Shown here: piece by piece, positions 2,627 to 38,998 of the stretch
How positions within the stretch are numbered: position 1 is the first letter of the stretch
Layout of the letters: every line of letters begins with the position of its first letter
Assembly: GCA_003278895.1 (NCBI GenBank)
Contig: QCCO01000001.1
Location: forward strand, 1-64,000
Source: Prochlorococcus sp. AG-347-L19
GTDB taxonomy: Bacteria; Cyanobacteriota; Cyanobacteriia; PCC-6307; Cyanobiaceae
Length of the DNA: 64,000 nt
Reading direction: 5' to 3'
Made by a program: the position numbers and the translations under genes
The notes under the pieces: model-generated
What the model saw: only the letters and a program-made list of their open reading frames with translations
What the model was told of the DNA's origin: nothing
Database searches by the model: none

Positions 2627-3690
2627 TAAATAAAATCCAAAAAAAAGGTATTTCAGAAATAAATGGATTCAGAATTCCAAATTCCCTAGAGATTATTGCT
2701 GAAGTTGGCCAAAATCATCAAGGAAATATTGATAACGCTATTAAATATGTTGAAGAATTTTCAAAATTAGGAGCTACCACGATAAAATTTCAAGCAAGAA
2801 ATAATAAAGAACTTTTTGACTCTTCCAGATATAACTTAATATATGATTCGCCAAATGCATTTGGCTTAACTTACGGAGAGCATCGGGAAAAATTAGAATT
2901 TGATGAGAATGAATTTATAAAAATAAAAAAAGCTATAAATTTCTCAAAAAATAAATTTTGTTGCACCCCCTTTGATCAAAAATCTCTTGAAATGTTACTA
3001 AAAATTGACGTTGACATGCTTAAAGTTGCTTCTTTTGATATGGGCAATTTACCTTTTCTAAAACAAATAGGTAAATCAAAAAAACCCACAATCATTAGTA
3101 CTGGCGGGGCTAACTTGGAAGTAATAATTAATAGTATTAAGGCCATAGATTACGGCCAAGATATATATATTTTACATTGCACATCAGAATATCCATGTAC
3201 AGCTGACAAGGTAAATCTATCCATGATTCCTATTCTTATAAACAAATTTCCTAAACATCAAATTGGAATATCGGATCATTTCAATGGAACTTTAACTGGA
3301 CCATTAGCAAGAATTCTAGGTGCAACAGTCTTTGAAAAACATGTTACATTTGATAGATCATTAAAAGGTTCAGATCATAAATTCTCTTTAGAACCTGATG
3401 GTTTTAGAAAGTTCGTAAGAGATATAAAAAGAACTGAAATTTTGTATCATAGAAATGATAGAAGTAATATTGGTAAAGAAGATGTATTTGAAAGACTCGG
3501 CAAAAGTTGTGTTGCTTCTAAAGATATAAAAAAAGGTGAAATTATAAAAATTGAGCACATAACTGGTAAGATTTTTGATAAACAAAAAATTCCAATTAGA
3601 GAATGCATGAACCTAATTGGCAAGAGCTTATCTAAAGATATTAAAAAAGGGCAAGAATTTGATTACAACATTATAAATGAATCTCATTAA
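2623..3690 (+). CDS. N-acetylneuraminate synthase family protein (NeuB-like, C-terminal SAF domain)
   Basis: EIIAEVGQNHQGN, KFQARN, GISDHFNGT, FEKHVTFDRSLKGSDHKFSLEP; C-terminal SAF-like SCVASKDIKKGEII. Confidence 0.88.
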   Translation: MINKIQKKGISEINGFRIPNSLEIIAEVGQNHQGNIDNAIKYVEEFSKLGATTIKFQARNNKELFDSSRYNLIYDSPNAFGLTYGEHREKLEFDENEFIKIKKAINFSKNKFCCTPFDQKSLEMLLKIDVDMLKVASFDMGNLPFLKQIGKSKKPTIISTGGANLEVIINSIKAIDYGQDIYILHCTSEYPCTADKVNLSMIPILINKFPKHQIGISDHFNGTLTGPLARILGATVFEKHVTFDRSLKGSDHKFSLEPDGFRKFVRDIKRTEILYHRNDRSNIGKEDVFERLGKSCVASKDIKKGEIIKIEHITGKIFDKQKIPIRECMNLIGKSLSKDIKKGQEFDYNIINESH

Positions 3691-4417
3691 CTCATCTAAT
3701 TATAAGTTTGTAGCTTTTATTCCTGCAAGATCTGGATCAAAGCGCATTAAAAATAAAAATATTTCAATCATAAATGGACAGAATCTAATTCAGAGAGCAA
3801 TAAATTGTGCTAGTAAAATCAAACTTATATCTGAAATTATTATTTCTACTGACAGTAAAGAATATGAGTTAATGGCTAAAAAAAATGGGGCCTCAAGTTA
3901 TGGCTTAAGACCAGCACATCTCTCAAAAGATTCTTCAAGTGATAAAGAATGGTTATTTTGGTTATGTACTTTATTAAGGGAGGGGAATAAAAAATATACT
4001 CATTATTTAATATTAAGGCCAACATCACCCTTTAGAAGTTCAGAATTAGTAAATACTGCAATTAATACCTTTATCAAAGCTCCTAAAGATTCTTTCACAA
4101 CCTTAAGGTCAGTTAGTAAAACAAAAGAACATCCTGGAAAAATGTGGGTTATTTTATCTGAAAATAAAATGTCAAGATTATTCCCATTTCATACAAATAA
4201 TATTCCTTGGTCAGATCAATCATATTCTTGTTTACCTTCTACTTATATTCAAAATGCCTGCATCGAGATCGGGTCTATAAATGGTATTTTAGAAAACATG
4301 CCCTCTTCAGGTTTCTCTACAATACCTTTCATTTGGGAAGGCAATGAAATATTTGATATAAATACACCAGAAGATTTAGAGTATGCAAGGTATATTGCTA
4401 ATAAATTGGATATATGA
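3677..4417 (+). CDS. Acylneuraminate cytidylyltransferase-like protein (NeuA-like)
   Basis: FIPARSGSKRIKNKNI, LRPTSPFRSSELV, FDINTPEDLEYA. Confidence 0.88.
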   Translation: MNLINSSNYKFVAFIPARSGSKRIKNKNISIINGQNLIQRAINCASKIKLISEIIISTDSKEYELMAKKNGASSYGLRPAHLSKDSSSDKEWLFWLCTLLREGNKKYTHYLILRPTSPFRSSELVNTAINTFIKAPKDSFTTLRSVSKTKEHPGKMWVILSENKMSRLFPFHTNNIPWSDQSYSCLPSTYIQNACIEIGSINGILENMPSSGFSTIPFIWEGNEIFDINTPEDLEYARYIANKLDI

Positions 4418-13130: not shown

Positions 13131-14312
13131 TTGAAAAAATTTCCTAGCTGGCCAAGTTATTCCTATGAAGAAATAGAGGCTGTAAAAAATATTCTCGAGG
13201 AAGGAAATGTTAATTATTTATTTGGTTCAATAGGTAAACAATTTGAGAAGGATTTTGCAAAATGGTCTGGCTGTAATCACGCAATTGCCTTAGCAAATGG
13301 ATCATTAGCATTATCATCAGCTTATATTGCATTAGGTTTAAAAGAAGGAGATGAATTCATAACAACTCCAAGAACTTTTATTGCTACAACATCAACTGCC
13401 CTAATGCTGGGCGCCAAGCCAATATTTGCTGATGTGGATTTAAATTCCGGCAACATAACAGCAAAAACTATTGAACCATTAATTAATAAAAATACAAAGG
13501 CTATTTCAGTAGTACATTTAGCTGGATGGCCTGCGGAAATGGAGGAGATTTGCGCATTAAGTGAAAAATATAATATCCCAATAATTGAGGATTGTTCACA
13601 AGCTCATGGGGCTGAAATCCTAAAAGATGGAGTATGGCAACCGGTAGGAAGTTTCGGCAAGGTTGCAACTTGGAGTTTTTGCCAAGATAAAATAATAAGT
13701 ACAGGAGGTGAAGGAGGAATGATCACAACGAATGATCACTCAATCTGGGAAAAAATTTGGTCACTTAAGGATCATGGCAAATCATTTCAAAAAGTTCAAA
13801 ATAAATCCTCAAAACCTGGATTCAGATGGCTTTGCGATGATGTTGGTTCAAACTTTAGGTTAACCGAGATGCAAAGTGCTATTGGAATAATTCAATTAAA
13901 AAAAATAAATAAATGGAGAGACAGGAGAACAGAAAATGCAGAAATATTGATTGCTATTCTTAAAGATATTAAATTTATAAGAATACCTAAACAACCTCAA
14001 GACATAAAACATGCATGGTATAAGTTTTATTTTTATCTTGATAATGAAGCATTATCAATTGAATGGAATAGGGAAAGAATATTAGAAGAAATAAACCAAA
14101 AAAAATTCCCATGCTATACAGGAGGATGTGGCGAAATATATTTAGAAAATTGTATAAAGAATTTAGGATTTAGTCCATCTAAACGGTTAAAAAATGCAAG
14201 AGTTTTATCTGAAACTAGCATTATGTTATGCGTTCACCCCACAATAACCAGTAAAGAAATTATAAATTACGCAAATGTAGTTAAGAGTACTTTATTAAAA
14301 GCATGTAAATAA
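13131..14312 (+). CDS. DegT/DnrJ/EryC1/StrS-family PLP aminotransferase (TTG start)
   Basis: ALANGSLALSSAYIALGL, IIEDCSQAHGAE, WSFCQDKIISTGGEGGMI (catalytic Lys). Confidence 0.88.
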   Translation: MKKFPSWPSYSYEEIEAVKNILEEGNVNYLFGSIGKQFEKDFAKWSGCNHAIALANGSLALSSAYIALGLKEGDEFITTPRTFIATTSTALMLGAKPIFADVDLNSGNITAKTIEPLINKNTKAISVVHLAGWPAEMEEICALSEKYNIPIIEDCSQAHGAEILKDGVWQPVGSFGKVATWSFCQDKIISTGGEGGMITTNDHSIWEKIWSLKDHGKSFQKVQNKSSKPGFRWLCDDVGSNFRLTEMQSAIGIIQLKKINKWRDRRTENAEILIAILKDIKFIRIPKQPQDIKHAWYKFYFYLDNEALSIEWNRERILEEINQKKFPCYTGGCGEIYLENCIKNLGFSPSKRLKNARVLSETSIMLCVHPTITSKEIINYANVVKSTLLKACK

Positions 14313-14469: not shown

Positions 14470-15153
14470 ATGAGGATATTAGTAATTGCTCCGCATGCTG
14501 ATGACGAAACATTAGGAATGGGAGCAACAATTTCTAAGTTTTCTAATAATGGTAATTATGTAACTGTTGCAATACTTACTGGTCATGGAGAAAAAAAACA
14601 TCCATTATGGCATCAATCAAAATGGGATGTAGTTAGAAAAGAAGCAAAGAAAGCATGCGAGATCCTTGGTGTTTCCGAATTAATATTTAAAGAATTACCA
14701 GCAGCATGTTTAGATAATATTCCATCTTGGGAAATAAATAAAGAAGTAAACAATCTAATAAAAGAAGTTGATCCTGAAGAAATTTATATCCCATTCCCTC
14801 ATGATTTACATAATGATCATAAAGCTATTTCTTATGCAGCAACAGTTGCTACTAGGCCATATTTAAAAAGTGCATCCAAAATCAAAAGAATATGCGCATA
14901 TGAAACTCTTTCAGAAACAAATTTAAATTTTCCTTATATGATTCCAAATTTTGAACCAAATATATTTATAAATATATCATCGTTAGAAATTGAAAAAAAA
15001 ATTAATGCTATGAAGGCTTATAAGAGTCAAATTCAAGAAGATAATCAGCCAAGGTCGATTGAAGGTATTAAAGCACTTTCTAAACTCAGAGGAATGCATA
15101 TTGGTTGTAGTTATGCAGAAGCTTTTTATTTACTAGGGGAATATCAACATTGA
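14470..15153 (+). CDS. PIG-L/LmbE-family N-acetylglucosamine deacetylase
   Basis: VIAPHADDETLGMGATI (metal-binding PHxDD), PFPHDLHNDHKAIS. Confidence 0.85.
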   Translation: MRILVIAPHADDETLGMGATISKFSNNGNYVTVAILTGHGEKKHPLWHQSKWDVVRKEAKKACEILGVSELIFKELPAACLDNIPSWEINKEVNNLIKEVDPEEIYIPFPHDLHNDHKAISYAATVATRPYLKSASKIKRICAYETLSETNLNFPYMIPNFEPNIFINISSLEIEKKINAMKAYKSQIQEDNQPRSIEGIKALSKLRGMHIGCSYAEAFYLLGEYQH

Positions 15154-15728
15154 TATATTTTCTTACTAAAAGAATTTTTGACTTTTTTTTTAGCTTTATA
15201 TTGTTAATTATACTTCTACCCTTTTTGATTTTAATTTCTTTATCCATCAAATTAACTTCAAATGGTACAATTTTCTTTACTCAAAAAAGAGTGGGATATA
15301 AGGGTCGACATTTTTTAATTTATAAATTTAGAACTATGTATATGAATCCTAAAAGAGATATAAAACAAACAATATTAGAGGACCCTGAAGTAACAACATT
15401 GGGCAAGTTTCTTAGAAGATACAAATTTGATGAAATACCTCAAATATACAATGTAATCAAAGGTGAGATGAGCTTAATTGGGCCAAGACCCATACTCCCA
15501 TTTACCTACCTTTCAATGCCAGACTGGGCAAAAAATCGTTTTAATGTCAAACCTGGATTAACAGGTCTCGCACAAGTAAGAGGGAATATCTTTTTAAGTT
15601 GGGAGGAAAGATGGAGATATGATTGCATTTACGCTTCAAATATCTCTTTACTAAGAGATTGTAAAATATTATTTAAAACAATATTTATTGTAATTTTTGG
15701 AGAAAAAAAATTTAAAGTAATTAAATGA
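15150..15728 (+). CDS. Initiating sugar-phosphate transferase (PglC/WbaP/WcaJ C-domain family)
   Basis: N-terminal TM; KRIFDFFFSF, FFTQKRVGYKGRHFLIYKFRTM, RRYKFDEIPQIYNVIKGEMSLIGPRP. Confidence 0.9.
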   Translation: MIYFLTKRIFDFFFSFILLIILLPFLILISLSIKLTSNGTIFFTQKRVGYKGRHFLIYKFRTMYMNPKRDIKQTILEDPEVTTLGKFLRRYKFDEIPQIYNVIKGEMSLIGPRPILPFTYLSMPDWAKNRFNVKPGLTGLAQVRGNIFLSWEERWRYDCIYASNISLLRDCKILFKTIFIVIFGEKKFKVIK

Positions 15729-16711
15729 AAATTATTATTATTGGGAGTGTTAGTAGTTCAAAAGTTGTTGCAGATAGACTCTTTATGTATAACTATAGAA
15801 ACGTAAGAATCTATGGTTATGAGACAAAAAATTCTCCTTCTATAAGTGATTGGTGTGACTTAAGAGCGGTATCAAACAAATATTCTTATGAATATGAACC
15901 ATTTATAAAAATTAAAGACTGCGAAACTTCAATTAAAGAATTTTCGCCAGATTACATATTTGCAGTTGGAATTTCTCAAATAATTCCAGATTCAATTTTA
16001 AAAATACCTAAAGTTTGTACGATTGGTTTTCATCCAACAAAATTACCTGAAGGCAGAGGAAGAGCACCTATCCCATGGATGATTTTAGAGGATAAAAAAG
16101 AAGGTGCTGCAACATTTTTTATTATTAGTAAGGGGGTTGACGATGGGGCAATAATATCACAAACAATTTTTAATATTAATTCAGATGATGATGCGAAATC
16201 TCTTACCATTAAAATGCTCGAATCTGAAAAAAAATCTCTTGATTTATTACTTCCTGATTTAAAAAATATAAATAAATTTAGTGGGCTAAAACAACAAGAG
16301 GATAAAGCAAGTTGGTATGGGAAAAGAGAACCTTATGATGGACTAATAGATTGGTCGCAAGATTCTAAAAGTATTTTAAAGTTGATAAGAGCCACAACAT
16401 ATCCTTATCCTTGTGCTTTTACTTTTTATAATCAAAACAAAATAAAAATAATTAAGGCCAAGTTAATCTTTTTATCAAACAAGGGAGTTTCTGGAAGAAT
16501 TATCAAAATTTGTGAGGACAATACATTTATAGTACAAACTGGTAATGGTCTTTTAAAAATTATTTTGTGGGAGGCAAATGAATGGGAGCCAAAAGTCGGA
16601 TTTTCCTTAGGTCTAAATATCCAAAAAGAAATTATCGAGTTAAGAGGTGAAATAAAAAAAATAAATAATTTTTTAAATAATTTAGATAAAAAAAATAGAA
16701 CAAATGCTTAA
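15725..16711 (+). CDS. Formyltransferase-family protein (methionyl-tRNA formyltransferase-like, predicted sugar N-formyltransferase)
   Basis: GFHPTKLPEGRGRAPIPWMI, GVDDGAIISQ; C-terminal OB-like domain. Confidence 0.75.
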   Translation: MKIIIIGSVSSSKVVADRLFMYNYRNVRIYGYETKNSPSISDWCDLRAVSNKYSYEYEPFIKIKDCETSIKEFSPDYIFAVGISQIIPDSILKIPKVCTIGFHPTKLPEGRGRAPIPWMILEDKKEGAATFFIISKGVDDGAIISQTIFNINSDDDAKSLTIKMLESEKKSLDLLLPDLKNINKFSGLKQQEDKASWYGKREPYDGLIDWSQDSKSILKLIRATTYPYPCAFTFYNQNKIKIIKAKLIFLSNKGVSGRIIKICEDNTFIVQTGNGLLKIILWEANEWEPKVGFSLGLNIQKEIIELRGEIKKINNFLNNLDKKNRTNA

Positions 16712-16854: not shown

Positions 16855-17976
16855 TTGAATGTTTTAATCACTGGAGCTGATGGTTTTATTGGGAAAAATC
16901 TCCAACTACTTCTTAAACCAAGATCTGACTTAAATATATTAAGTTTCACAAAGAAAAATAATTTAGAAGAATTAAGTGATTTAATCTCAAAAGCTGATTT
17001 TATTGTTCATCTTGCAGGTATAAACAGAACTGAAAAATCTGAAGAATTTAATTTAGTTAATACACAATTAACCGAATATATTTCGAGTATACTTGCCAAA
17101 TTGCATAAAAAAAAAATTATACCACTTATTTTAGCTTCAACTACTCATGTGAAGAAAAATACTTTATATGGACAAACTAAACTTAAAGCTGAAAATACTT
17201 TACTAAAAACTGGGAAAGAATATGGAATTCCTATATACATAATCCGTTTAACAAACGTTTTTGGTAAATTCTGTAGACCTAATTACAATTCTGCAGTGGC
17301 AACTTTTTGTCACAATATTAATAGATCAATTCCAATCAGAATAGATAATAAAAATACTATTTTAGAGTTGGTTTATATTGACGATGTTATAAAAATGTTT
17401 TTAAAAATTATTGATGGATATAAACCTCCAAAAGACGATGAAGGTATTATTTCGATTAATCCTACATACAAAATTAAGTTAGGAGAATTAGTTGCAATGC
17501 TTTTAAATTTTAAAAAAATTAGAGAAAACAAAATGATAGAAAACATAGGAGGAGGGTTTTCGAGAGCACTATATTCAACTTTTATAAGTTACACTCCAAA
17601 AAAGCTTTTTACTTATCCTATTAAAGGCAATATTGATGAAAGAGGGATTTTCGTAGAATTTTTAAAAACCCACAAAAATGGTCAGGTATCTTTTTTTACA
17701 GCACATCCAGGTATTACAAGAGGAGGGCATTATCACAATACCAAGACTGAGAAATTTCTTGTTATTTCAGGAAAAGCAAGATTTCGATTTAAGCACGTTA
17801 TTTCTGAAGAAGAACATGTAATCACTACTGATTCTAAAAATATGCAAATAGTTGACTCAATTCCAGGGTGGAGTCATGATATTAAAAACATTGGGAATTC
17901 TGAATTAATAGTAATTATTTGGGTAAATGAGATATTTGATCCTCAGAGTCCAGATACTTTTCCTAGCAAAATTTAG
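16855..17976 (+). CDS. Capsular polysaccharide CapF/FnlB-type reductase (SDR plus C-terminal cupin)
   Basis: VLITGADGFIGKNL, YGQTKLKAE; C-terminal cupin RGGHYHNTKTEKFLVISGKARFRFKHV; next to a CapG-like epimerase. Confidence 0.85.
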   Translation: MNVLITGADGFIGKNLQLLLKPRSDLNILSFTKKNNLEELSDLISKADFIVHLAGINRTEKSEEFNLVNTQLTEYISSILAKLHKKKIIPLILASTTHVKKNTLYGQTKLKAENTLLKTGKEYGIPIYIIRLTNVFGKFCRPNYNSAVATFCHNINRSIPIRIDNKNTILELVYIDDVIKMFLKIIDGYKPPKDDEGIISINPTYKIKLGELVAMLLNFKKIRENKMIENIGGGFSRALYSTFISYTPKKLFTYPIKGNIDERGIFVEFLKTHKNGQVSFFTAHPGITRGGHYHNTKTEKFLVISGKARFRFKHVISEEEHVITTDSKNMQIVDSIPGWSHDIKNIGNSELIVIIWVNEIFDPQSPDTFPSKI

Positions 17977-17983
17977 ATAAATT

Positions 17984-19132
17984 ATGGATAAAAAATCAAT
18001 GATGAAAGTAGCTACTGTTGTAGGAACTAGACCTGAAATAATTCGTCTTTCTGAGATAATAAAAAAATTAGATTTGTATTTTAATCACTTACTAATACAT
18101 ACCGGACAAAATTATAATTATGAATTGAATCAAGTCTTTTTTGAAAATCTTGACATAAGGAATCCAGATTATTATCTTAATTGTGCTGAGGGGACATCTA
18201 ACGTAAATCAAACGATAGGAAATATCATAACAAATGTTGGCAATATTCTTTTAAAGGAAAAGCCAGAAGCACTTCTTGTTCTAGGAGATACAAACAGTTG
18301 TTTGTCTGTAATAGCTGCGAAAAGGTTAAAGATTCCAATATTTCATTTGGAAGCTGGAAATCGATGTTTCGATATGAGAGTACCTGAAGAAATTAATAGA
18401 AAAATAGTTGATCATACTTCAGATATTAATCTTACATATAGCTCTATTGCCAGAGATTACCTTATTAAAGAAGGTATTCCAGCAGATTTAGTTATTAAAG
18501 TTGGTAGTCCTATTTATGAAGTTTTAAATCAAAATATGGCGAAAATTAATTCCTCAAAAATCATAAATCAATTAAATCTACAAGAAAAAAAATTCATTTT
18601 AATAAGTATTCATAGAGAAGAAAATATTGACTCTAATAATAATTTTTTAAATATAAAAAATATTCTTAATAAAATTGCAGATTTATATCAATTGCCAATT
18701 ATTGTTTCCACTCACCCAAGAACTGAAAAACAGATAAAAGTTAGAAATTTAATTTTCGATGATAAGATAAAGTTCATAAAACCACTTGGATATTTTGACT
18801 ATATAAAACTTCAGATTACATCTAAATTAGTTATTTCAGATAGTGGGACAATTACTGAAGAGGCATCAATTTTAAACATACCTGCTATAAATTTAAGAGA
18901 GTCTCATGAGAGACCTGAAGGAATGGAAGAGGGTGCAGTTATGATGACAGGTATTTCAGAAAAAAGAGTTTTACAAGCAATTAAAATTCTAGAAGATCAA
19001 GGTAGAGGGAATAAAAAGAGGCTCCTTAACCAAGTTATTGATTACTCCCATAAGAATGTTTCAGATAAAGTTATTCGGATAATAATGAGTTATACAGATT
19101 ATGTAAATAGAGTTATTTGGAAAAAATACTAA
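17984..19132 (+). CDS. Non-hydrolysing UDP-GlcNAc 2-epimerase family (CapG/FnlC/WecB-type)
   Basis: VVGTRPEIIRLSEII, LLVLGDTNSCL, HLEAGNRCFDMRVPEEINRKIVDH, SDSGTITEEAS. Confidence 0.88.
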   Translation: MDKKSMMKVATVVGTRPEIIRLSEIIKKLDLYFNHLLIHTGQNYNYELNQVFFENLDIRNPDYYLNCAEGTSNVNQTIGNIITNVGNILLKEKPEALLVLGDTNSCLSVIAAKRLKIPIFHLEAGNRCFDMRVPEEINRKIVDHTSDINLTYSSIARDYLIKEGIPADLVIKVGSPIYEVLNQNMAKINSSKIINQLNLQEKKFILISIHREENIDSNNNFLNIKNILNKIADLYQLPIIVSTHPRTEKQIKVRNLIFDDKIKFIKPLGYFDYIKLQITSKLVISDSGTITEEASILNIPAINLRESHERPEGMEEGAVMMTGISEKRVLQAIKILEDQGRGNKKRLLNQVIDYSHKNVSDKVIRIIMSYTDYVNRVIWKKY

Positions 19133-20371
19133 ATGAATATAAGGATTTTAATTCTAACGGAATTTTTTGATCCCGAACCACATTTGAAGGGATTATTATT
19201 TGCGAAAGAATTAATTAAATTTAAAAACTCAGTAACAGTTTTGACAGGTTTCCCAAATTACCCAAAAGGAAAAATTTATCCAAATTATAAATTGCAAATA
19301 CAAAAAATAGAAGAAATAGACGGTACAAAAATCATACGAGTACCTCTATATCCAAGTCACGATAAATCATCCATAAAAAGGGCATTCACATATTTAAGTT
19401 TTTCTTTCTCAGCATTAATAAGAGGAATCTTTCTAAAAAACAAAATAGATATTATTTATGCTTACCATCCACCAGTTACTGTTGGAATAGTTGGAATATT
19501 ATTAAAAACATTTTTTAAAGTACCTTTAGTTCTTGATGTTCAAGATATGTGGCCGGAGCAATTGTTAGCTTCCAAAATGGTTTCAAATAAATTAATAATT
19601 TCTTTTATAAATAAGATCATTAATATTACTTACAAAAAATCAGATAAAATTGTTACACTATCAAATGGTTTCAAAAAAAATCTTTTAAAAAAGGGAATTC
19701 CTGATGAAAAAATAAAAGTAATATATAATTGGACAACAATCCAAACTAGAGTAAATACTGCGAATACAATTAAAATTTCTAATAAATTATTTAAATCAAA
19801 TAAGTTTAATATTCTATATGCAGGTAATATGGGCATAATGCAGTCTTTAGATACTATTTTATATGCTGCAATTGAAATACAAAAAATTAAAACTAATATA
19901 AATTTTATATTTATAGGAAATGGAGTACAAAAAGAATTTCTATTATCATTAAAAAATAAATATAATCTTGAAAATGTTATCTTTCATGAGCAGATTCCGA
20001 TGGAACAGATTCATAGTTATTTAAATAAAGCAGATGCTTTAATTTTACATTTGAAAAATATAAAAATCTTTGAACAAACAATTCCTTCCAAAATACAAGC
20101 CTATATGTATTCTGGTAAACCTATAATTGGATGCTTAAAAGGATGTGGTGCAGAAATAATAGAAAAATCAAAATCAGGAATAATTGCTGAACCCGAAAAT
20201 GCAGAATCAATATTAAAAGCAATAATCAAAATAGAAAAAATGAGTAAAAAACAACTAAAAAAGATGGGGGAAAGAGGCAGGCTTTTTTACGAAAGTAATA
20301 TGTCTATTAATAAAGGTGTTAATGATTTTAATTCAGTTTTTAAAGAATTAATTCTTAAGAGTAATTTCTAG
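19133..20371 (+). CDS. Glycosyltransferase family 4 (WbuB-like)
   Basis: TEFFDPEPHLKGLLFAKEL, VLTGFPNYPKGKIYPNY, DVQDMWPEQL; follows FnlB/FnlC-type genes. Confidence 0.85.
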   Translation: MNIRILILTEFFDPEPHLKGLLFAKELIKFKNSVTVLTGFPNYPKGKIYPNYKLQIQKIEEIDGTKIIRVPLYPSHDKSSIKRAFTYLSFSFSALIRGIFLKNKIDIIYAYHPPVTVGIVGILLKTFFKVPLVLDVQDMWPEQLLASKMVSNKLIISFINKIINITYKKSDKIVTLSNGFKKNLLKKGIPDEKIKVIYNWTTIQTRVNTANTIKISNKLFKSNKFNILYAGNMGIMQSLDTILYAAIEIQKIKTNINFIFIGNGVQKEFLLSLKNKYNLENVIFHEQIPMEQIHSYLNKADALILHLKNIKIFEQTIPSKIQAYMYSGKPIIGCLKGCGAEIIEKSKSGIIAEPENAESILKAIIKIEKMSKKQLKKMGERGRLFYESNMSINKGVNDFNSVFKELILKSNF

Positions 20372-20524: not shown

Positions 20525-22885
20525 ATGCATAACTATAAAAATATAAATAAGAATAAAAAACTCTTTTTGTTTTCAAAATTAATATCTAATTTTAAAGATG
20601 ATGAAATTATTTTTCATATTAAAAAATCAACCGATAAAACTATTTCATTGAATAAAAAAGAAGTTAAAAAACTTTGTTTTAGCTTGTCAGAAAGAATTGT
20701 TTCAAATACAACAAATCAGAAGATAGAGGATCAATTAAAAATTTTCGCTTTGTGCAAAGCTAGTAAAGAGTCAAGTATCACAATGCTTTCAAGTGCATTA
20801 CTAGGAGCTCATCATTGCATTTGTTTTGAAGAGCTTTCTGTAGAAGCAATTTCTTTAAGATTAGAAATTTTTAAGCCCGATATTATTTTATATAGAAAAG
20901 GATTAGAAGATAAAATTTTTAGTGCCTCGAAAAAAGCTGGATTTAATAAAAAAATAATTGAAATAAGCTTTGATCTAGACAAACAATATTCTTTTGCAGA
21001 TATTACTAAAAAGATTAAATCTATGGAAAATAGTTATGAAGAAAAATCTTCACTATTTACACTTTTCACATCTGGTTCTACAGGAAAACCCAAAGGAATA
21101 ATTCATAGTGCAAAGAAATATATTAACTATGCAAAGTTTTCAACAAAATATTTTTTTGGATTAGATAAATCCTCCAAGATTTTTACTGCTACAGATGCTG
21201 GATGGATTAATGGTCATACATATGCAATTTATGGTCCATTAAGTCTTGGTTCAGAATCAATTATTTGTGAAAATTTAAAATTCTTGTCCAAACCTAATAA
21301 TTTGATAAATACTATTAACGAAACTAAAGCAACTTGTTTTTATTCTTCAGTAACTTTGTTAAGACTTTTAAAAAGTAAATCAAAAGTAGCTACTACTAAT
21401 AAATTTGATATTGCACTTGACAGAATAGGTTCGTGTGGCGAACCTTTAGCCCATGAAGTTGGAGAATGGGCAATGAAGTTTTTTAAACCAATTAGGAAAA
21501 CAATAGTCAATACTTATTTTCAAACTGAGACAGGTGGAATTCTTGTTGCTCCAAGAGATGAAGATGGAATTCCTAATGATTATTCATCTGTAGGTATACC
21601 TAGAAAAGAGCTTGGAATTGATTTAGCCAAAAATATTTTTAATTCTGTAGATTTAGAAAATTATAAAATTCAACCTAATGAAATTATTATAAAAAATAAA
21701 TGGGATGGGCTTTATAAGGATGTCGTATCAGATAGAAAAGTAAATTATTGGATAAATAATTCATACTTTAGATTAAACGATACAGGTTTCTTTGATGAAA
21801 AAGGATTTTTATATATTTCGGGTAGAAGTGATGATGTTATTAATTGTGCTGGGCATAGAATTTCTAGCTCTGAGATAGAAAGTATATGCATGAAAATACC
21901 CGATGTTACAGAAGCCTGTTGTGTTCCAAGGAAAAACAAAGTTTTGGGAGATGTACCTGTATTGTTTATTTCAACTAAGAGCAAAAATAATAAAAATACA
22001 TATGAAAAAATTAGAGACTTAACAAACAAATATCTTTCGGATTTACATCAACCAGAAGAAATAACTATTTTTCAGTCACTCCCTAAAACTAGAAGCGGTA
22101 AAATCATGAGAAGGATAATGAAAGATCTTTCTCAAAACTACTTTATAGATTATCAAAAAGATTATTCAACCTTGGCAAACTATAGTGAATTTTATGAATG
22201 TTCTAATAAATATATTGAATCAAGAATAGACAAAGTTAGTGAAAATAGTTTGATATTCAATCTTGAAAGTTTCTGCAAAAGAGTTGGTTTAAATTTAGGT
22301 AATAAATATACCCTTAATACCCTAATCATTACAATTGCGGAATTAATTTTTAGAACTAGCCAATCATCTATAATAAATAATCTTAGTATTAAATTAATTA
22401 GCAAAAATAAAGAGTATCTAACATCAAATATTGAATTTAACAAAAAACAATCTCTATTAAATATTAATAAAGCAATTCAAAATACTGAGATTAGGAAGGA
22501 ATCTTGCTTATTAAATATTGAAAAAATGATTTTTAAATTTAAATTAAACAAGAACGATAATTATATTTTTCTATTTAAAAAAATAAAATTAAAGGAAAAT
22601 GAATTTTTTATTCAAGATTTTCTATCTACTGATCAAATCAAAGAATCTCCTAAATTAAATAATATTATTAAAAATTTAATAGATATAAAAGAAAGTAATA
22701 AAAATTCAATCCCGTCTTTAAATCAATCAAGGATAAGTTTATTTAGATGTTTTAAATGTAATGTTTCTGTAGAAGAAATAGCCAAAGAGAGAGGAATTAA
22801 TAAGGAAGAACTATTCCTAATATCAATAAAAAAATTTGATGGCACTAATGCTCTAATATGTGATACATGCTTACAGGGTTGGTAA
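20525..22885 (+). CDS. AMP-forming acyl-activating enzyme (acyl-CoA synthetase-like) with unusual ~220-aa C-terminal extension ending in a CxxC...CxxC element
   Basis: LFTLFTSGSTGKPKGI (P-loop), YFQTETGG, GRSDDVINCAGHRISSSEIES, LPKTRSGKIMRRI; tail FRCFKCN...LICDTCLQGW. Confidence 0.85.
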   Translation: MHNYKNINKNKKLFLFSKLISNFKDDEIIFHIKKSTDKTISLNKKEVKKLCFSLSERIVSNTTNQKIEDQLKIFALCKASKESSITMLSSALLGAHHCICFEELSVEAISLRLEIFKPDIILYRKGLEDKIFSASKKAGFNKKIIEISFDLDKQYSFADITKKIKSMENSYEEKSSLFTLFTSGSTGKPKGIIHSAKKYINYAKFSTKYFFGLDKSSKIFTATDAGWINGHTYAIYGPLSLGSESIICENLKFLSKPNNLINTINETKATCFYSSVTLLRLLKSKSKVATTNKFDIALDRIGSCGEPLAHEVGEWAMKFFKPIRKTIVNTYFQTETGGILVAPRDEDGIPNDYSSVGIPRKELGIDLAKNIFNSVDLENYKIQPNEIIIKNKWDGLYKDVVSDRKVNYWINNSYFRLNDTGFFDEKGFLYISGRSDDVINCAGHRISSSEIESICMKIPDVTEACCVPRKNKVLGDVPVLFISTKSKNNKNTYEKIRDLTNKYLSDLHQPEEITIFQSLPKTRSGKIMRRIMKDLSQNYFIDYQKDYSTLANYSEFYECSNKYIESRIDKVSENSLIFNLESFCKRVGLNLGNKYTLNTLIITIAELIFRTSQSSIINNLSIKLISKNKEYLTSNIEFNKKQSLLNINKAIQNTEIRKESCLLNIEKMIFKFKLNKNDNYIFLFKKIKLKENEFFIQDFLSTDQIKESPKLNNIIKNLIDIKESNKNSIPSLNQSRISLFRCFKCNVSVEEIAKERGINKEELFLISIKKFDGTNALICDTCLQGW

Positions 22886-22889
22886 ATGT

Positions 22890-23540
22890 ATGGATAAGAA
22901 AATTTTAAATAAAATATTTTCTCTTATTAATGAATTTCCATTAAATAAAGATATTGAATTAGATATAAAAACTCCCATATCTAAACTAATTAACTTATTT
23001 AGTTCATTAATCCTCGAGAGAATTACAGTAAAACTGGAGGAGTCATTTCCAAATAATAATTTTAATGGTATTACGCTTAATTCAAATATAGAAGAAATTT
23101 ATAATATGATAAATAATGAATCAAAAATTATAAATAAAGAGGGGGAAATCACTAATAAAGAAAATTTATTTATTAAAAATAATATCCAAATAAATGATCA
23201 AAGATTAAAACTAGGTATAGATATCGAATATAAATCTTCATTACCAATTGAAATTTTTGAAAAATCAAATTTGAAGCTCAGAGAAAAATTATTTACTGTT
23301 CAAGAAATAGCATATTCACTTTCTAAACCAGACCCTATTTTAACTTTATTAGGTATTTATTCATCTAAAGAAGCAATCAAGAAAACTTTTAATAATGAAT
23401 TTGAATACAAAGATTGTGAGATCTTGCATGAACAAAATGGCAAACCATATTGCAAGATACATAATACAGTTTTTAAAAATATAATTATTTCAATTTCACA
23501 TGCCGAAAGTTTAGCGATAGGTGTCTGCACTAGATTTTAA
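22890..23540 (+). CDS. Predicted acyl-carrier-like domain fused to AcpS-type 4'-phosphopantetheinyl transferase
   Basis: C-terminal LGIDIE, LREKLFTVQEIAY, YSSKEAIKKTF, ISISHAESLAIGV fit AcpS motifs. N-terminal SSLILERITVKLEESF aligns without gaps to the ACP pattern DSLxxxELxxxLEExF. The ORF track starts at 22860; ATG at 22890 gives a more natural start. Confidence 0.7.
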   Translation: MDKKILNKIFSLINEFPLNKDIELDIKTPISKLINLFSSLILERITVKLEESFPNNNFNGITLNSNIEEIYNMINNESKIINKEGEITNKENLFIKNNIQINDQRLKLGIDIEYKSSLPIEIFEKSNLKLREKLFTVQEIAYSLSKPDPILTLLGIYSSKEAIKKTFNNEFEYKDCEILHEQNGKPYCKIHNTVFKNIIISISHAESLAIGVCTRF

Positions 23541-23545
23541 ATCAC

Positions 23546-24202
23546 ATGAATACTTTGAAAAACGAAAAATTAATTATTGTGGGTTATGGTAACCATTCTG
23601 GTGTAATAACAGAAGCAGCACTCCTTATGGGTTATAAAAATATCGATTATATAGTAACTGACAAATCAGAGCCAATAAGCATTGATGGAAAAACTATAAC
23701 CAATGAATTACCTACAAATTATCTTGGAAATTTTTTCATAGCGATTGGTCAAAATTACTTAAGAGAAAAATTATATAAGGAATTTATTTTTAAAAATCCA
23801 AAGTCAAAATTCATAAGAATTATTCATCCTAAAAGCTATATTTCAAGCTCTGCGAAAGTAGATGAGGGAAGTGTTATCCTTCCAAACGCTGTAATTCATA
23901 CAGGATGTCATATTAAAAGAGGTGTAATAATTAATATCAATTGTCACGTAGATCACAATACAATAGTAGAAGAATTCTCTTCATTATCCCCATCTTCTAC
24001 TATTGGAGGTAATAGTAGAATAGGCGCAAGAAGTTCACTATTGCTTGGATCTTCTGTATTATCTAATTTAGAAGTAGGAGAAGATGTCGTTATTGGAGCA
24101 AACTCTTGTGTTCATGAAAATATTCAAAAAAACTCTGTTTGTATAGGTAACCCTTCCAGAAGAATTAGATTCAGAAAAAATGATCAAAATTATATGTATT
24201 AA
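23546..24202 (+). CDS. Sugar O/N-acyltransferase, left-handed beta-helix (NeuD/PglD/LegH family)
   Basis: IIVGYGNHSGVITEAA N-terminal domain; hexapeptide repeats; INCHVDHNTIVEEF, IGANSCVHENI. Confidence 0.85.
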   Translation: MNTLKNEKLIIVGYGNHSGVITEAALLMGYKNIDYIVTDKSEPISIDGKTITNELPTNYLGNFFIAIGQNYLREKLYKEFIFKNPKSKFIRIIHPKSYISSSAKVDEGSVILPNAVIHTGCHIKRGVIININCHVDHNTIVEEFSSLSPSSTIGGNSRIGARSSLLLGSSVLSNLEVGEDVVIGANSCVHENIQKNSVCIGNPSRRIRFRKNDQNYMY

Positions 24203-24354: not shown

Positions 24355-26256
24355 TTGAAAAGATTGAAGCAACTTCTTCAATTAGTTGGAACTAAATTAA
24401 TCTCTTCTCCAAGGAATATAAGAAGGATTATACTAATACTTATAGATGCATTAATACTTTTTTTTTCATTTGCCATTAGTTATAAATTTTTGATTAATGC
24501 GAAAATAGGAATAGAGGTAAACGATAATTATTTAGTATTAATTTTTTATAGTTTTTTAGGAATAATTGTATATTTATTATCAGATCAATATAAAAGAATA
24601 AGTAGTTATTTCATAAGTACAACTTTTTATAATATTTGTAAAAGAAATATCATTTTAATAATAATTATTTATTTTTATCAACTTATTTTTACTGAAAATA
24701 AAAACAATTTCTATGCTTTAATTCTTTTTTGGTTGATTGCAAGTTTTGCGACAACTTTTTTTAGATTTATTCTCAAAGACTGGATTCTCTTATTGAAGTC
24801 CAGTCCCAACAAGCCAAAGATTAATGTTGTAATTTATGGAGCCGGTAGTGCAGGCATGCAACTTTATGCCTCTTTAACTCATAGTAACGAATATAAGGTC
24901 AAATACTTTGTAGATGACGATCCTCTACTTAATAAACGATTAATTGGTGATTTAAGAATTCAATCATATAAATATCTGCAATCAAATCATGAAGATGTTG
25001 ATCTAGTCCTTCTTGCGATGCCCTCATTAGGAAAAAATAAATTAAAAGAAATTATATTAAAGATTCAAAATGTTAATTTATCAGCATTAAAAGTACCAAG
25101 TCTTGAAAAATTAAATTCAGGTAATAAAGACATATCTAGACTAGAGTCAATATCTATCGATGATTTAATAGGTAGGGAAAAAGTAGTCCCTAATAAAAAA
25201 CTTCTTTCCAAAACTATTCATAATAAAGTCATTTGCATTATTGGATCTGGGGGTTCAATAGGTTCAGAACTTTGTAGACAAATAATAAGTTTAAATCCAA
25301 ATAAATTAATACTTTTTGAGAGAAATGAAATGTCATTATATAAAATAGACAAAGAAATATCTTCTCTAGTAAAAGAAAACAATCTAAAAATAGATTTAAT
25401 ATCATTACTAGGCTGCGCTACAAATAAAAATCTTTTAAAAAAAATCTTTGAAAAATACTATGTATCAACTGTCTTCAACACAGCCGCATATAAACATGTT
25501 CCAATAGTAGAAAATAATTTAATAGCAGGTTTATCAAATAATATTATTTCAACTCAGAGTATTTGCGAAGCATGTTTAGATTGCGGGGTTGAAAGATTGG
25601 TTCATATCTCTTCTGATAAAGCCGTGAGACCTACAAATGTAATGGGTGCATCCAAAAGAGTTTCTGAATTAATAGTTAAGTCTTATGTAAATAATGAAAG
25701 AAATACTAAAACTATTTTCAGTATGGTTAGATTTGGGAATGTGCTTGGATCATCAGGTTCAGTTGTACCATTATTTGAATCTCAAATTAATCAAGGAGGT
25801 CCAATAACTATTACACATCCTGAAATCACAAGATATTTTATGACCGCAGAAGAAGCGGCACAATTAGTTATACAGTCTTCTGCTCTTTCAAAAGGAGGAG
25901 AAATATTTTTGCTAAATATGGGGGATCCAATTAAGATAAAAGATCTTGCTCATCAAATGATTAAATTAAAAGGATTATCAGTAAAAGATAATAATTCTGA
26001 AAAAGGGGAAATTCAAATTATATACACAGGTATTCGTCCAGGAGAAAAGCTTTATGAAGAATTACTATCTGATGGAATTAGTTCGCCAACAGAACATCCA
26101 TTGATATTTCAGTCTGAGGAGAGTTTGGAAGAAAAAAATTTAGCTTCAGATTTAGAATTACTTAAAGAAGGCCTACAAAATTTTAATAAAAGCAAAGTTG
26201 TGATAGCTTTAAAAAAACTTGTGCCAGATTGGAAATCAGAAAAATATTCAATATAA
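24355..26256 (+). CDS. Membrane-bound nucleotide-sugar 4,6-dehydratase (PglF/WbpM/CapD family, TTG start)
   Basis: Four N-terminal TM segments; VIYGAGSAGMQL, IIGSGGSIGSELCRQI, SSDKAVRPTNVMGASKR, ITRYFMTAEEA. Confidence 0.9.
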   Translation: MKRLKQLLQLVGTKLISSPRNIRRIILILIDALILFFSFAISYKFLINAKIGIEVNDNYLVLIFYSFLGIIVYLLSDQYKRISSYFISTTFYNICKRNIILIIIIYFYQLIFTENKNNFYALILFWLIASFATTFFRFILKDWILLLKSSPNKPKINVVIYGAGSAGMQLYASLTHSNEYKVKYFVDDDPLLNKRLIGDLRIQSYKYLQSNHEDVDLVLLAMPSLGKNKLKEIILKIQNVNLSALKVPSLEKLNSGNKDISRLESISIDDLIGREKVVPNKKLLSKTIHNKVICIIGSGGSIGSELCRQIISLNPNKLILFERNEMSLYKIDKEISSLVKENNLKIDLISLLGCATNKNLLKKIFEKYYVSTVFNTAAYKHVPIVENNLIAGLSNNIISTQSICEACLDCGVERLVHISSDKAVRPTNVMGASKRVSELIVKSYVNNERNTKTIFSMVRFGNVLGSSGSVVPLFESQINQGGPITITHPEITRYFMTAEEAAQLVIQSSALSKGGEIFLLNMGDPIKIKDLAHQMIKLKGLSVKDNNSEKGEIQIIYTGIRPGEKLYEELLSDGISSPTEHPLIFQSEESLEEKNLASDLELLKEGLQNFNKSKVVIALKKLVPDWKSEKYSI

Positions 26257-30999: not shown

Positions 31000-32028
31000 T
31001 TAATCAAAAAAGTCCCATTTCATTTGAACATTCTTTGATACATCTCTATTTAATTTTTTGCCAACAACATTATCGAATTCATATGCAGGTATTTCTCCTG
31101 TTCCTGGTCTTCTTGCCCATATATCTATCTCACTAATTTTAGTTCCTTTAATTAAATTTCTATCAGCAACAATACTACCTCTGGCAAATTCATATACTGA
31201 TTCTTCTTCTTTAGTTCTTTCTTTAGGATTATTTATAGCAATGTGAATTTCCTCTGATCTATCGATGAGGAATCTTAACTCTGCAGGATCCATTGAACAT
31301 ATAATATCAGGACCTTTCCTATATCTACTATCTGTAAAATGTCTTTCAATTATTTTAGCTCCTAATGCAACTGCCGCTAGCGCAATAGTTGGACCTATTG
31401 AGTGGTCTGAAAATCCAATTATTGCATTTGGGAAATTCTTCTTTAGGTCTTTAATTCCTTTTAATGATACTACGCTTGGGGGTGAAGGATACAAATTAGT
31501 GCATTCAAGCAGTCCAAATTCAATATCGGAATTTTCTAAAATCTCAACACTTTTTCTTATCGAAGAGATAGAGTTCATGCCAGTAGAGAGAATAATAGGT
31601 TTATTGAAACTAGCAATATGTCTTATCAAAGGAATATTATTTGCTTCTCCAGAGCCAATTTTGAAACCTGGAACATCTATATCATTTAGAAAATCAGCGG
31701 CAGCTCTTGAAAAAGGAGTTGATAAATAAATCACGCCAAGATCTTCAGTAAATTTTTTTAGTTCAATTTCTTCATCTTTTGAAAGAGCGCAATTAGCTAT
31801 TAAATCCCAAATTGATTCTTTCATATGTGGAGGGTAAATATTTTTAGCCTCATCAGTCATTTCATCCTCAATAATATGTGTCTGATGTTTAATACATTCT
31901 GCTCCCGATTTGGCAGCTAAATAAACCATCTTTTTTGCTAACTCTAAATTGCCTCCATGATTAATTCCTATCTCAGCAATAATTAGAGGCTTTTCAGAGT
32001 TGTTAATGATCCTTCCAGATAATTGCAC
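31000..32028 (-). CDS. N-acetylneuraminate synthase family protein, second copy (NeuB/LegI/PseI-like)
   Basis: IAEIGINHGGNLELAKKM, KHQTHII, GFSDHSIG, IERHFTDSRYRKGPDI; C-terminal SAF-like region. Confidence 0.9.
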   Translation of the reverse strand: MQLSGRIINNSEKPLIIAEIGINHGGNLELAKKMVYLAAKSGAECIKHQTHIIEDEMTDEAKNIYPPHMKESIWDLIANCALSKDEEIELKKFTEDLGVIYLSTPFSRAAADFLNDIDVPGFKIGSGEANNIPLIRHIASFNKPIILSTGMNSISSIRKSVEILENSDIEFGLLECTNLYPSPPSVVSLKGIKDLKKNFPNAIIGFSDHSIGPTIALAAVALGAKIIERHFTDSRYRKGPDIICSMDPAELRFLIDRSEEIHIAINNPKERTKEEESVYEFARGSIVADRNLIKGTKISEIDIWARRPGTGEIPAYEFDNVVGKKLNRDVSKNVQMKWDFFD

Positions 32029-34081: not shown

Positions 34082-35524
34082 TTAGCCTATTAATGAATTT
34101 ACACAACTTCTAAGTAAATTCAAACCATCTCTACCGCTTCTCTCAGGATGAAATTGCATTCCAATAGTATTATATTTTTGTACCATAGCAGCAAATTCAT
34201 AGTCCCAAAAATCAGAAGTAAAAACTATATTTTGATCAAGGGATTTTGAATACTTAAGCGCATAACTATGTACAAAATATTGTTTTGTATTATTAAATCC
34301 TTCATAAAATTCATTTTGTTTATTTTTATTAGTTTTAATGCTGTTCCATCCTACGTGCGGCAGCAAGGTCTCATTTCCTTTTTTAGTAAAATTAGGCAAC
34401 TTCTCAATAATACCAGGAATAATGCCTAAACCTTCACATTTTTCATATTCTGTACCCTGAGATAAAAGTAATTGCATACCTAAACATATCCCAATAAGGC
34501 AACCTCCAGAATCACTATATTCTTTTAATTTTTCTATTAAATTATATTTTTTAAGTTGTTTCATCCCCTCTGGGAAAGCACCTACTCCAGGCAAAACGCA
34601 TAATTTATTCTTTCTTATAACTTCAATATCAGTTGTTAATTCACTTCTAATACCTAATAAATTGAAAGCATTAATAAGACTTTGAATATTTCCCATACCA
34701 TAATCAATAATACTTACTTTTAATTTTTCTTTTATTGAATTAATTGCAAAGTTATTGTTGACATCCCTTACTGGTAAATTTAAATTTCTTAAACTTTCCT
34801 TTACTTCATATATTTCCATTTTTTTATAATGAAGAGCCCATCCTATAGATACCCCAGAAAGATTTGTATTATTTCTGAAAATATCAGATACGTTTTTTGA
34901 AGAAGAAAATCCGCCTCCAAAAACCAATGGAATTTTTACTAAACTTTTAATATCTTCTAGTAAACCAAAATCTGGCCCCCTTCCAGTTCCATCTCTGTCG
35001 ACTGAAGTTAAAAAGATTTCACCAGCCCCACGTTCTTGGCCCTCAATAATCCAATCTTTTAAATCCTTTTTTGTTTTTTCTCTTCCCGATTCAATCATAA
35101 CGTCCCATTTAAAATTACCCGAATAAAAAACTTGTATTGACAAAACAACGCATTGACTTCCAAACTTTTTTGAAAGCTTATTTATTAAACTTGGATTTTT
35201 TATTGCTTCAGAATTAATTGCAAGTTTATCTGCTCCAGCTGCTAAAAGTTTTCTACCATCTTCAACTGATCTAATTGCTCCCCCAGCTGTAATAGGAACA
35301 AATATTTTTTTTGTAGTATCTCTAAGAATTTCATCCAAGCCATTTCTTCCGTATAAGCTTGCGACTGCATCTGTATAAAATATTTCATCAATTCCATTTT
35401 TTGCATAATACTCAGCTGCGTCGCATGCATCTCCTATAACTCTCAAACCTTCAAAACGAACTCCCTTAATTAGTCTTCTTCCCTTAATATCTAACCTTGC
35501 TATTACTCTCCTACAACTACTCAT
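34082..35524 (-). CDS. Fused HisF-like / HisH-like protein (glutamine amidotransferase plus ammonia-channel barrel), predicted partner of sugar amidotransferase
   Basis: N-terminal HisF barrel VIARLDIKGRRLIKGVRFEGLR...TSVDRDGTGRGPD; C-terminal HisH class I GATase IIDYGMGNIQSL, GICLGMQLL (Cys), MQFHPERSG (His/Glu); 480 aa without interruption. Confidence 0.9.
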   Translation of the reverse strand: MSSCRRVIARLDIKGRRLIKGVRFEGLRVIGDACDAAEYYAKNGIDEIFYTDAVASLYGRNGLDEILRDTTKKIFVPITAGGAIRSVEDGRKLLAAGADKLAINSEAIKNPSLINKLSKKFGSQCVVLSIQVFYSGNFKWDVMIESGREKTKKDLKDWIIEGQERGAGEIFLTSVDRDGTGRGPDFGLLEDIKSLVKIPLVFGGGFSSSKNVSDIFRNNTNLSGVSIGWALHYKKMEIYEVKESLRNLNLPVRDVNNNFAINSIKEKLKVSIIDYGMGNIQSLINAFNLLGIRSELTTDIEVIRKNKLCVLPGVGAFPEGMKQLKKYNLIEKLKEYSDSGGCLIGICLGMQLLLSQGTEYEKCEGLGIIPGIIEKLPNFTKKGNETLLPHVGWNSIKTNKNKQNEFYEGFNNTKQYFVHSYALKYSKSLDQNIVFTSDFWDYEFAAMVQKYNTIGMQFHPERSGRDGLNLLRSCVNSLIG

Positions 35525-36888
35525 TTAGCACGATTACCTTCCCAAATGGCAGCATTATTAAAATTATCCAAACTACTATTTTCTTCATAAACAGTTTTTC
35601 TTAATTTCCAACCATGTATTTCATCCCAAAACCATAAATGAGGAGACCTTGCATTGTCTGAAAGAAGGTCATAATATTCTCTGTTAAAATTAGGGGATTC
35701 AAATTTTTTATATGCTTCAGGAAATTCATTTTCCTTAATAGATAGATATTCAAAAATTTCTTTCGACCATCTTTCAGGGAATTCACAATCAAATTTCTTA
35801 ACTAAAGCGATACCTTCTTCTCGAAGGAGTTCGCCCGAACGAATATCAATAGCTGCGTCATATGAAGCTCTTCCAATTCCAAACTTTATAGAAGTTGTAT
35901 GATAATGAAAATCATCTATTCGATCGTCTATCGAATTATATGTATTGTAAGTTCCTACTGTTCTTTCAGGTGAATTAGTAAAGCCACCATGATCAACTGA
36001 ATAATAATAAGCACCTTGTGGATGCCATTTCTCATAATATCCAAGATAATGTACTTCAATGTTATTAGATTCTATAATCTCAGGGTTAATAGGAAGATAA
36101 GAATTCCAATCTGATTTACTTAATCCTAATTCTCTCAATTGAGTTAATGAACTACCACCTATAAAAATTTCATCTTCATCATTAGCAGTGAAATAATCCC
36201 ATGACATCTTAGTTGATTTCATATCAGCTTTAGGATTTCCATATTCAGCCTGATTTTCTCCGTAGAAAACCAATGGGATTCCATATTTAGCTGCTATTTT
36301 TGGACCCAAACTTTTTTGACCTAAAAAAAATGGTTGAAAAGGGTGGAATATGTTGTCAACTGCAAGTCTAGTGATTAGCTTATGAATTCTGCCATTGGGA
36401 GTAAACAAAATATTATCAAAACCTGCATGAACCCAAGCCTGATGATTTTTCCATCCCCAATCTGTATAAATATGTGGTGCCCATGTACATGTAAGAGGAT
36501 TCATTCCATATTTATATTTAAGTAAATGAGCTGTCATAAAACTATCTTTACCGCCACTTCCTGGGACAAGACAATCATAATATCCTTCATTATTTCTATG
36601 TTTATCACATAGTTCTCTTAATTCTTCCTCTCTTTGAGACCAATTGATTTTATTTTTTTCCTTTTGCACTTTACATGCATCACAGATACCATCCTTATCA
36701 AAAAAAATTGTTTTCTTTGTTTGTTTTATTTTGGTTTTAAACTCAACGCTACTTGATGGTCTTTGATTACTAATAACACATGATTTACAAAATTTTATTT
36801 CTCTAGGCAAGCCATAAAATGCTTCTGGATTGACAATATTTTTTCTATAAAGATCTTTATCTACAGGTTTTGGATATGGAATAAACAT
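35521..36888 (-). CDS. N-acetyl-sugar amidotransferase (WbpG/PseA/LegM-like)
   Basis: CKSCVISNQRPSS and GICDACK Cys pairs, PGSGGKDSFMTAHLLK PP-loop, GENQAEYGNP; 4-nt overlap with HisF-HisH. Confidence 0.88.
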   Translation of the reverse strand: MFIPYPKPVDKDLYRKNIVNPEAFYGLPREIKFCKSCVISNQRPSSSVEFKTKIKQTKKTIFFDKDGICDACKVQKEKNKINWSQREEELRELCDKHRNNEGYYDCLVPGSGGKDSFMTAHLLKYKYGMNPLTCTWAPHIYTDWGWKNHQAWVHAGFDNILFTPNGRIHKLITRLAVDNIFHPFQPFFLGQKSLGPKIAAKYGIPLVFYGENQAEYGNPKADMKSTKMSWDYFTANDEDEIFIGGSSLTQLRELGLSKSDWNSYLPINPEIIESNNIEVHYLGYYEKWHPQGAYYYSVDHGGFTNSPERTVGTYNTYNSIDDRIDDFHYHTTSIKFGIGRASYDAAIDIRSGELLREEGIALVKKFDCEFPERWSKEIFEYLSIKENEFPEAYKKFESPNFNREYYDLLSDNARSPHLWFWDEIHGWKLRKTVYEENSSLDNFNNAAIWEGNRAK

Positions 36889-38323: not shown

Positions 38324-38998
38324 ATGAATGATTTCATTTCACTTGTTCCAATAAGGGATGGGTCAAAAGGTCTTAAAAACAAAAATATCTCAAAAATACA
38401 GGGAACTCCTCTCTATTTAAGAACAGTTGAACAGGCTCTAAGAATAACAGAAAAATGCATTATAAATACTGATATAGATTCGGTTTTAAAGACTAAGTTT
38501 CAAAATAAAAATATAATTCTTTTCAAGAGAGAAAAAAAATTTGCTCAAGACGATACACATATGAATATAGTTTTAAAAGATTTATTAAAAAAAATAAATC
38601 TTTTAAATAAAGTCATAATACTTTTACAAGCAACAAGTCCTTTAAGAAAAGATCAGGATATTCAGAATGCTATAAATATTTTCAACAAAGGGGGTTTTTC
38701 AATGGTAATGAGTGTAAAAAAAACAGACTCTGTTCTTTTAAAGTATGGTTACGAAAAAAATCAAAAATTTATACCTTTTGCAAAACAGTATTTATATAAA
38801 AATAGACAGTCTTTACCAAAAGTATTATCTCCAAATGGTGCTATTTATATTTTCTCTGTAAATGAATTTTTAAAAAAAAATAAACTTCCTGAAAATAATA
38901 TTGGTTTTTATGAAATGCCTGCTTTAAGGTCTATTGATATCGATAAAAAAGAAGACCTTAATAAGGTAAGAAAAATAATTAGAAAGAGTATTGATTAA
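38324..38998 (+). CDS. Acylneuraminate cytidylyltransferase-like protein, second copy
   Basis: LVPIRDGSKGLKNKNI, LLQATSPLRKDQDI, SIDIDKKEDL. Confidence 0.82.
   Translation: MNDFISLVPIRDGSKGLKNKNISKIQGTPLYLRTVEQALRITEKCIINTDIDSVLKTKFQNKNIILFKREKKFAQDDTHMNIVLKDLLKKINLLNKVIILLQATSPLRKDQDIQNAINIFNKGGFSMVMSVKKTDSVLLKYGYEKNQKFIPFAKQYLYKNRQSLPKVLSPNGAIYIFSVNEFLKKNKLPENNIGFYEMPALRSIDIDKKEDLNKVRKIIRKSID

Follow-up and report, generated by a model that had tools for sequence, protein, structure and literature searches.

The window, that is, the whole 64,000-nucleotide stretch of Prochlorococcus DNA analysed, carries on its forward strand a gene at 22890-23540 (ATG at 22890, stop codon ending at 23540) encoding a 216-residue protein in which a carrier-like domain is joined to a phosphopantetheinyl transferase (PPTase). 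The carrier-like domain takes up residues 1-77 (22890-23120). It is followed by a flexible linker of low pLDDT at about residues 78-106 (23121-23207) and by an AcpS-type PPTase domain (23208-23537). The fusion gene starts 4 nt past the stop of a gene for an AMP-forming acyl ligase (20525-22885, forward strand) and ends 5 nt ahead of the start of a gene for a PglD/NeuD-type amino-sugar N-acyltransferase (23546-24202, forward strand; matched by TIGR03570 at E 2.2e-44, slightly below the cut-off of that model, and by C. jejuni PglD structures at E 5e-25). Given these spacings, the ligase, the fusion and the acyltransferase form a tight three-gene run and are probably transcribed together. Two full-length homologues of the fusion were found, both in the same genus and with 43-44% identity, and the comparisons below cover these three members: G000 (the window copy), G004 and G285.

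The trio is flanked by genes for surface-polysaccharide synthesis, all on the forward strand: a PglF-type nucleotide-sugar 4,6-dehydratase (24355-26256; PF02719, E 2.6e-112), a PLP-dependent sugar aminotransferase of the PglE/PseC/DegT type (13131-14312; TIGR03588, E 3.8e-67, below the equivalog cut-off), a PglC-like initiating sugar-phosphate transferase (15150-15728; TIGR03025, E 2.8e-72) and a FucNAc unit (16855-20371) comprising an FnlB-like reductase, an FnlC-like epimerase and a WbuB/WcaI-like glycosyltransferase (NF047837, E 2e-142; TIGR00236, E 5.1e-74; NF007640, E 6.2e-43). The earlier note had placed the gene outside any fatty-acid or polyketide context, which is correct, as the fusion sits in a surface-polysaccharide island. 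In G004, the ligase-fusion pair lies beside NeuA-, NeuB- and NeuC-type genes and a hexapeptide acyltransferase gene on the opposite strand. A 422-residue protein (L025:13785-15050, minus strand) with no Pfam match at E 10 is encoded between the G004 ligase and the NeuA-type gene.

Several other genes of the island were noted in passing. A PIG-L type deacetylase (14470-15153) and an ArnA-like formyltransferase (15725-16711) adjoin the PglE-like aminotransferase, so that a second amino-sugar modification, formylation, may be encoded in the same island. By eye, from the translation, a 480-residue ORF at 34082-35524 resembles a HisF-HisH fusion and adjoins a WbpG/PseA-like N-acetyl sugar amidotransferase (35521-36888), a pairing that suggests an acetamidino sugar. 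Two NeuB-like nonulosonate synthase genes (in the region 2623-4417 and at 31000-32028) were likewise recognized by eye, together with NeuA-like partners (3677-4417 and 38324-38998), so the island may encode two pathways to nonulosonic acids.

The C-terminal half of the fusion is an AcpS-type PPTase with certainty, and on this point the earlier note was right. Residues 108-213 match the Pfam ACPS model PF01648 (E 1.8e-9; 38 bits against a cut-off of 25), the C-terminus matches B. subtilis AcpS (PDB 1f80) at E 1.7e-11, and Foldseek paired the whole-protein model, itself of low confidence (pLDDT 52.7), with AcpS structures at a probability of 1.00. The equivalents of the catalytic residues Asp8, Glu58, Lys62 and His105 are D111, E161, K165 and H204, and they are kept in all three members.

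The N-terminal domain is probably a divergent acyl-carrier domain. Its segment SSLILERITVKLEESF (residues 38-53) aligns without gaps to ACP helix II at Ser, Leu, LEE and Phe and places a Ser at the attachment position, just as the earlier note had described. Taken alone, this likeness is weak, because against an ACP HMM built from diverse cyanobacterial carriers the window domain scored near chance (0.7 bits; 233 of 3000 shuffles equally good). The G004 domain reached 7.7 bits against the same HMM, clearly above chance, with 6 of 3000 shuffles and none of 2342 protein tiles as good. This HMM aligned the Ser39 region to the carrier motif "SL", and in G004 the alignment ran on to the last helix; an HMM built from FAS ACPs only preferred another register. 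The NCBIfam ACP model NF009104 (PRK12449) matched the G004 domain at E 0.0014 over residues 5-79 of its 80 positions and G285 weakly at E 0.058, both below the curated cut-off, and did not match the window copy. The profile check split between the two halves: the ACPS model was matched, but PF00550 (PP-binding) found nothing in any fusion member up to E 10, compared with 1.8e-16 for a control ACP from the same genome. Searches of PHROGs and PDB sequences with the N-terminal domain or the whole protein returned no usable carrier match, and hhalign of the domain profile against ACPs gave a probability of only about 5%, too weak to use.

Structure prediction gave a mixed answer. From a two-sequence alignment, AF2 modelled helices at residues 3-14, 30-52 and 67-77 (pLDDT 83, pTM 0.61), of which helices 1 and 3 are placed like the first and last helices of an ACP; helix 2 starts at residue 30, nine residues ahead of Ser39, and a Foldseek search with this two-sequence model found no ACP and no credible match. 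The earlier note had named the lack of a four-helix carrier fold and a non-conserved Ser as the findings that would count against it. From this shallow alignment a clean ACP fold was not obtained, although three helices at ACP-like positions were. The Ser itself is conserved: the motif INLFSSL, in which Ser39 (codon 23004-23006) is the proposed phosphopantetheine attachment site, is invariant in all three members, which represent two independent lineages.

The interface between the two halves provides a further line of evidence. In B. subtilis, Arg14 of AcpS contacts Asp35 and Asp38 of ACP and orients the acceptor Ser (PMC3447402). We examined this residue in an alignment that combined the three fusions, ten standalone AcpS proteins, the enzyme from B. 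subtilis and the PPTase domains of two fungal fatty-acid synthases (FAS). The Arg14 position is Arg in B. subtilis and in every one of the ten standalone proteins, Ser in all three fusions (S117 in the window copy) and Ala in both fungal domains; none of the fusions therefore has the Arg14 that marks a group I AcpS acting on FAS ACP. On the carrier side, the Asp35 equivalent is Ser in the fusion and Lys in fungal FAS (GGKS). Thus, the PPTase Arg and the carrier Asp are both lost in the fusion, and the same double loss is seen in the fungal synthase. The CalE8 carrier, which also has a built-in PPTase, bears an HMSSI motif whose second Ser, but not the first, is required, and it forms a three-helix bundle (helices 938-950, 971-984 and 1001-1014) (PMC3107222). 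The Ser lies 36 residues beyond the first residue of helix 1 in the fusion and 33 in the CalE8 carrier, and the last helix begins 28 and 30 residues after the Ser, respectively. The earlier note had pointed out that the usual Asp before the Ser is replaced by Ser and had raised the possibility of a divergent or inactive domain. The replacement is real, but by analogy with CalE8 HMSSI (PMC3107222) and yeast FAS GGKS it need not imply inactivity.

Purifying selection acts on both domains. Between G004 and G285, dN/dS is 0.22 for the N-terminal domain and 0.10 for the AcpS domain, and about 1.9, over few sites, for the stretch corresponding to the linker, as expected if both domains are functional and the tether between them is unconstrained. 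Because the fusion is the sole Pfam ACPS match in its genome, it had seemed that no other PPTase was present; this idea was rejected, as an Sfp-type enzyme that scores low in Pfam is there (G000:C16:22478-23122). The Sfp-type enzyme has diverged so far that the Pfam ACPS model fails to pick it up in most sampled genomes of the genus, and profile-only surveys of Prochlorococcus could thus wrongly report the PPTase as absent. This housekeeping PPTase is kept in all three fusion hosts, and the near-complete G004 genome has a single PF00550 carrier, an 80-residue FAS-type ACP. The fusion is therefore an additional PPTase for which no other substrate is apparent.

These results bear on whether the N-terminal domain is a carrier or, instead, a helical docking or assembly domain that leaves the AcpS half to prime some other carrier, for example the FAS ACP. 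The absence of a Pfam carrier match, the Foldseek search without an ACP and the different register chosen by the FAS-derived HMM would all fit such a docking role. The AcpS half, however, has lost the Arg needed for docking standard ACPs, its hosts already have the Sfp-type PPTase, and G004 offers no other dedicated carrier; the conserved Ser and the ACP-length helices would also have to be coincidence. We thus regard a docking domain as unlikely. We consider the carrier assignment the probable one, based on the ACP match of the G004 relative, the helix placement, the conserved Ser39, the purifying selection, the matched loss of Asp and Arg14, and the adjoining ligase and acyltransferase. The ACP-AcpS fusion originally suggested by the earlier note is thus partly supported, with a certain AcpS half and a probable carrier half.

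The adjoining ligase (PF00501, E 1e-31; PF13193, E 1e-13) belongs to the acetyl-CoA synthetase type and has a C-terminal extension of about 240 residues, and its G004 partner is 44% identical. Asn replaces Thr, Cys replaces Val and Phe replaces Trp at three positions that we take to belong to the acetate pocket. The G004 ligase shares these three residues, suggesting a substrate other than acetate. The extension (22145-22885 in the window; L025:10634-11404 in G004) was found only in the fusion-bearing genomes G000 and G004, the G285 contig stopping at the fusion. Its sequence identity across the two lineages is 31%; it had no Pfam match above cut-off and ends in two CxxC pairs (CFKC and CD[TL]C). 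Possibly it is a zinc ribbon to which the carrier docks.

The ligase type also speaks for another route. Acetyl-CoA synthetase-like enzymes produce acyl-CoA instead of loading carriers, which counts against the loading of a carrier by this ligase, and PPTases of the AcpS superfamily can accept acyl-CoAs. The ligase might then make an acyl-CoA from which the AcpS half places acyl-phosphopantetheine directly on the carrier in one step. Each carrier would be used only once in this way, which is wasteful unless the pantetheine is recycled, and no recycling enzyme was identified; we consider this one-step route improbable. Less probable still is that the carrier part is a relic beside a PglD-type enzyme that uses acyl-CoA like C. 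jejuni PglD, since the acetyl-CoA use of PglD relatives, the missing Asp of the DSL motif and the weak score of the window domain against ACP models are outweighed by purifying selection on both domains, intact catalytic residues and an equivalent SS motif that is functional in CalE8 (PMC3107222).

We therefore favour, with somewhat better than even confidence, a self-priming acyl carrier that feeds amino-sugar N-acylation of a surface polysaccharide. The AcpS-type domain, probably a trimer, would move 4'-phosphopantetheine from CoA onto Ser39 of its own fused carrier. The ligase, probably co-transcribed, would activate a small carboxylic acid, not acetate, and load it onto the pantetheine thiol. 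The neighbouring PglF- and PglE-type enzymes would supply a sugar of the UDP-bacillosamine type, and the PglD-type enzyme would acylate the 4-amino group of this sugar from the loaded carrier, the end product being an N-acylated surface polysaccharide. Of this scheme, we infer the carrier role of the N-terminal domain, its priming in cis, the loading step and the transfer step, whereas the AcpS fold and active site, the order of domains and genes, the partner genes, the conservation and the selection are established.

The fusion is rare. It occurs in three of 267 genomes of the same genus, in two independent lineages; none was found among 400 genomes of other genera of the order, and none besides G000 and G004 among 388 genomes of the phylum, where the other matches covered the AcpS part only, in short ORFs as expected of standalone AcpS. 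Phage and plasmid records contained no fusion, the plasmids carrying ordinary AcpS only, and a scan of genome contigs that included other phyla returned only the G285 copy, from an uncultured Prochlorococcus MAG, and a Bacilli AcpS. That the family comprises only three members in two independent lineages is a point against the self-priming carrier. A wider proposal, on which we are evenly divided, is that a carrier and its own PPTase form a minimal self-priming module of 216 residues whose co-evolved interface ignores the host carrier and PPTase, and that together with the ligase it makes up a portable cassette bringing carrier-dependent sugar acylation into the surface-polysaccharide islands of Prochlorococcus, where the housekeeping PPTase is of the Sfp type. 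If this is true, the fusion would be the smallest natural chain met here that carries and primes its own acyl carrier, would offer a small model of PPTase-carrier recognition that does not rely on the Arg14-Asp35 contact, and would allow a carrier-dependent modification to move between genomes independently of the host priming enzyme. Phages use the surface polysaccharides of Prochlorococcus as receptors and grazers target them; a new route of acylation would therefore bear on strain diversity.

Several known systems come close to this arrangement. The fusion shares the fold and the Asp8/Glu58/Lys62/His105 active site of bacterial AcpS (group I, PF01648), from which it differs in the added N-terminal domain, in Ser for Arg14 and in Ile for Arg53. 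DltA and DltC, which serve D-alanylation, resemble the proposed scheme in that the cell surface is modified by way of a dedicated carrier charged by an AMP-ligase, but their carrier is separate, the acceptor is different and no PPTase is fused. The integrated PPTase of fungal FAS (group III) matches the fusion strongly in sequence (E 8e-10), lies in the same chain as its carrier and shares the loss of both contact residues; it is, however, part of a chain of about 1,880 residues that makes fatty acids, whereas the 216-residue fusion has its carrier directly before the PPTase, contains no FAS domains and hence does not belong to that group. The enediyne polyketide synthases CalE8 and SgcE combine, much as is proposed for the fusion, a same-chain PPTase with a divergent three-helix carrier modified at the second Ser of Ser-Ser-Ile/Leu (PMC3107222), but they are megasynthases for polyketides. 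In the O-polysaccharide cluster of Flavobacterium psychrophilum, where Fnl, PglE/PglF and WbuB-like genes are likewise clustered, the PglD homologue WfpG is proposed to acylate UDP-Qui2NAc4N with a group delivered by the dedicated ACP WfpD (PMC6519341). Different from the fusion, that ACP is a separate protein, and its acyl group is built by ketoacyl-ACP synthases and not supplied by an AMP-ligase.
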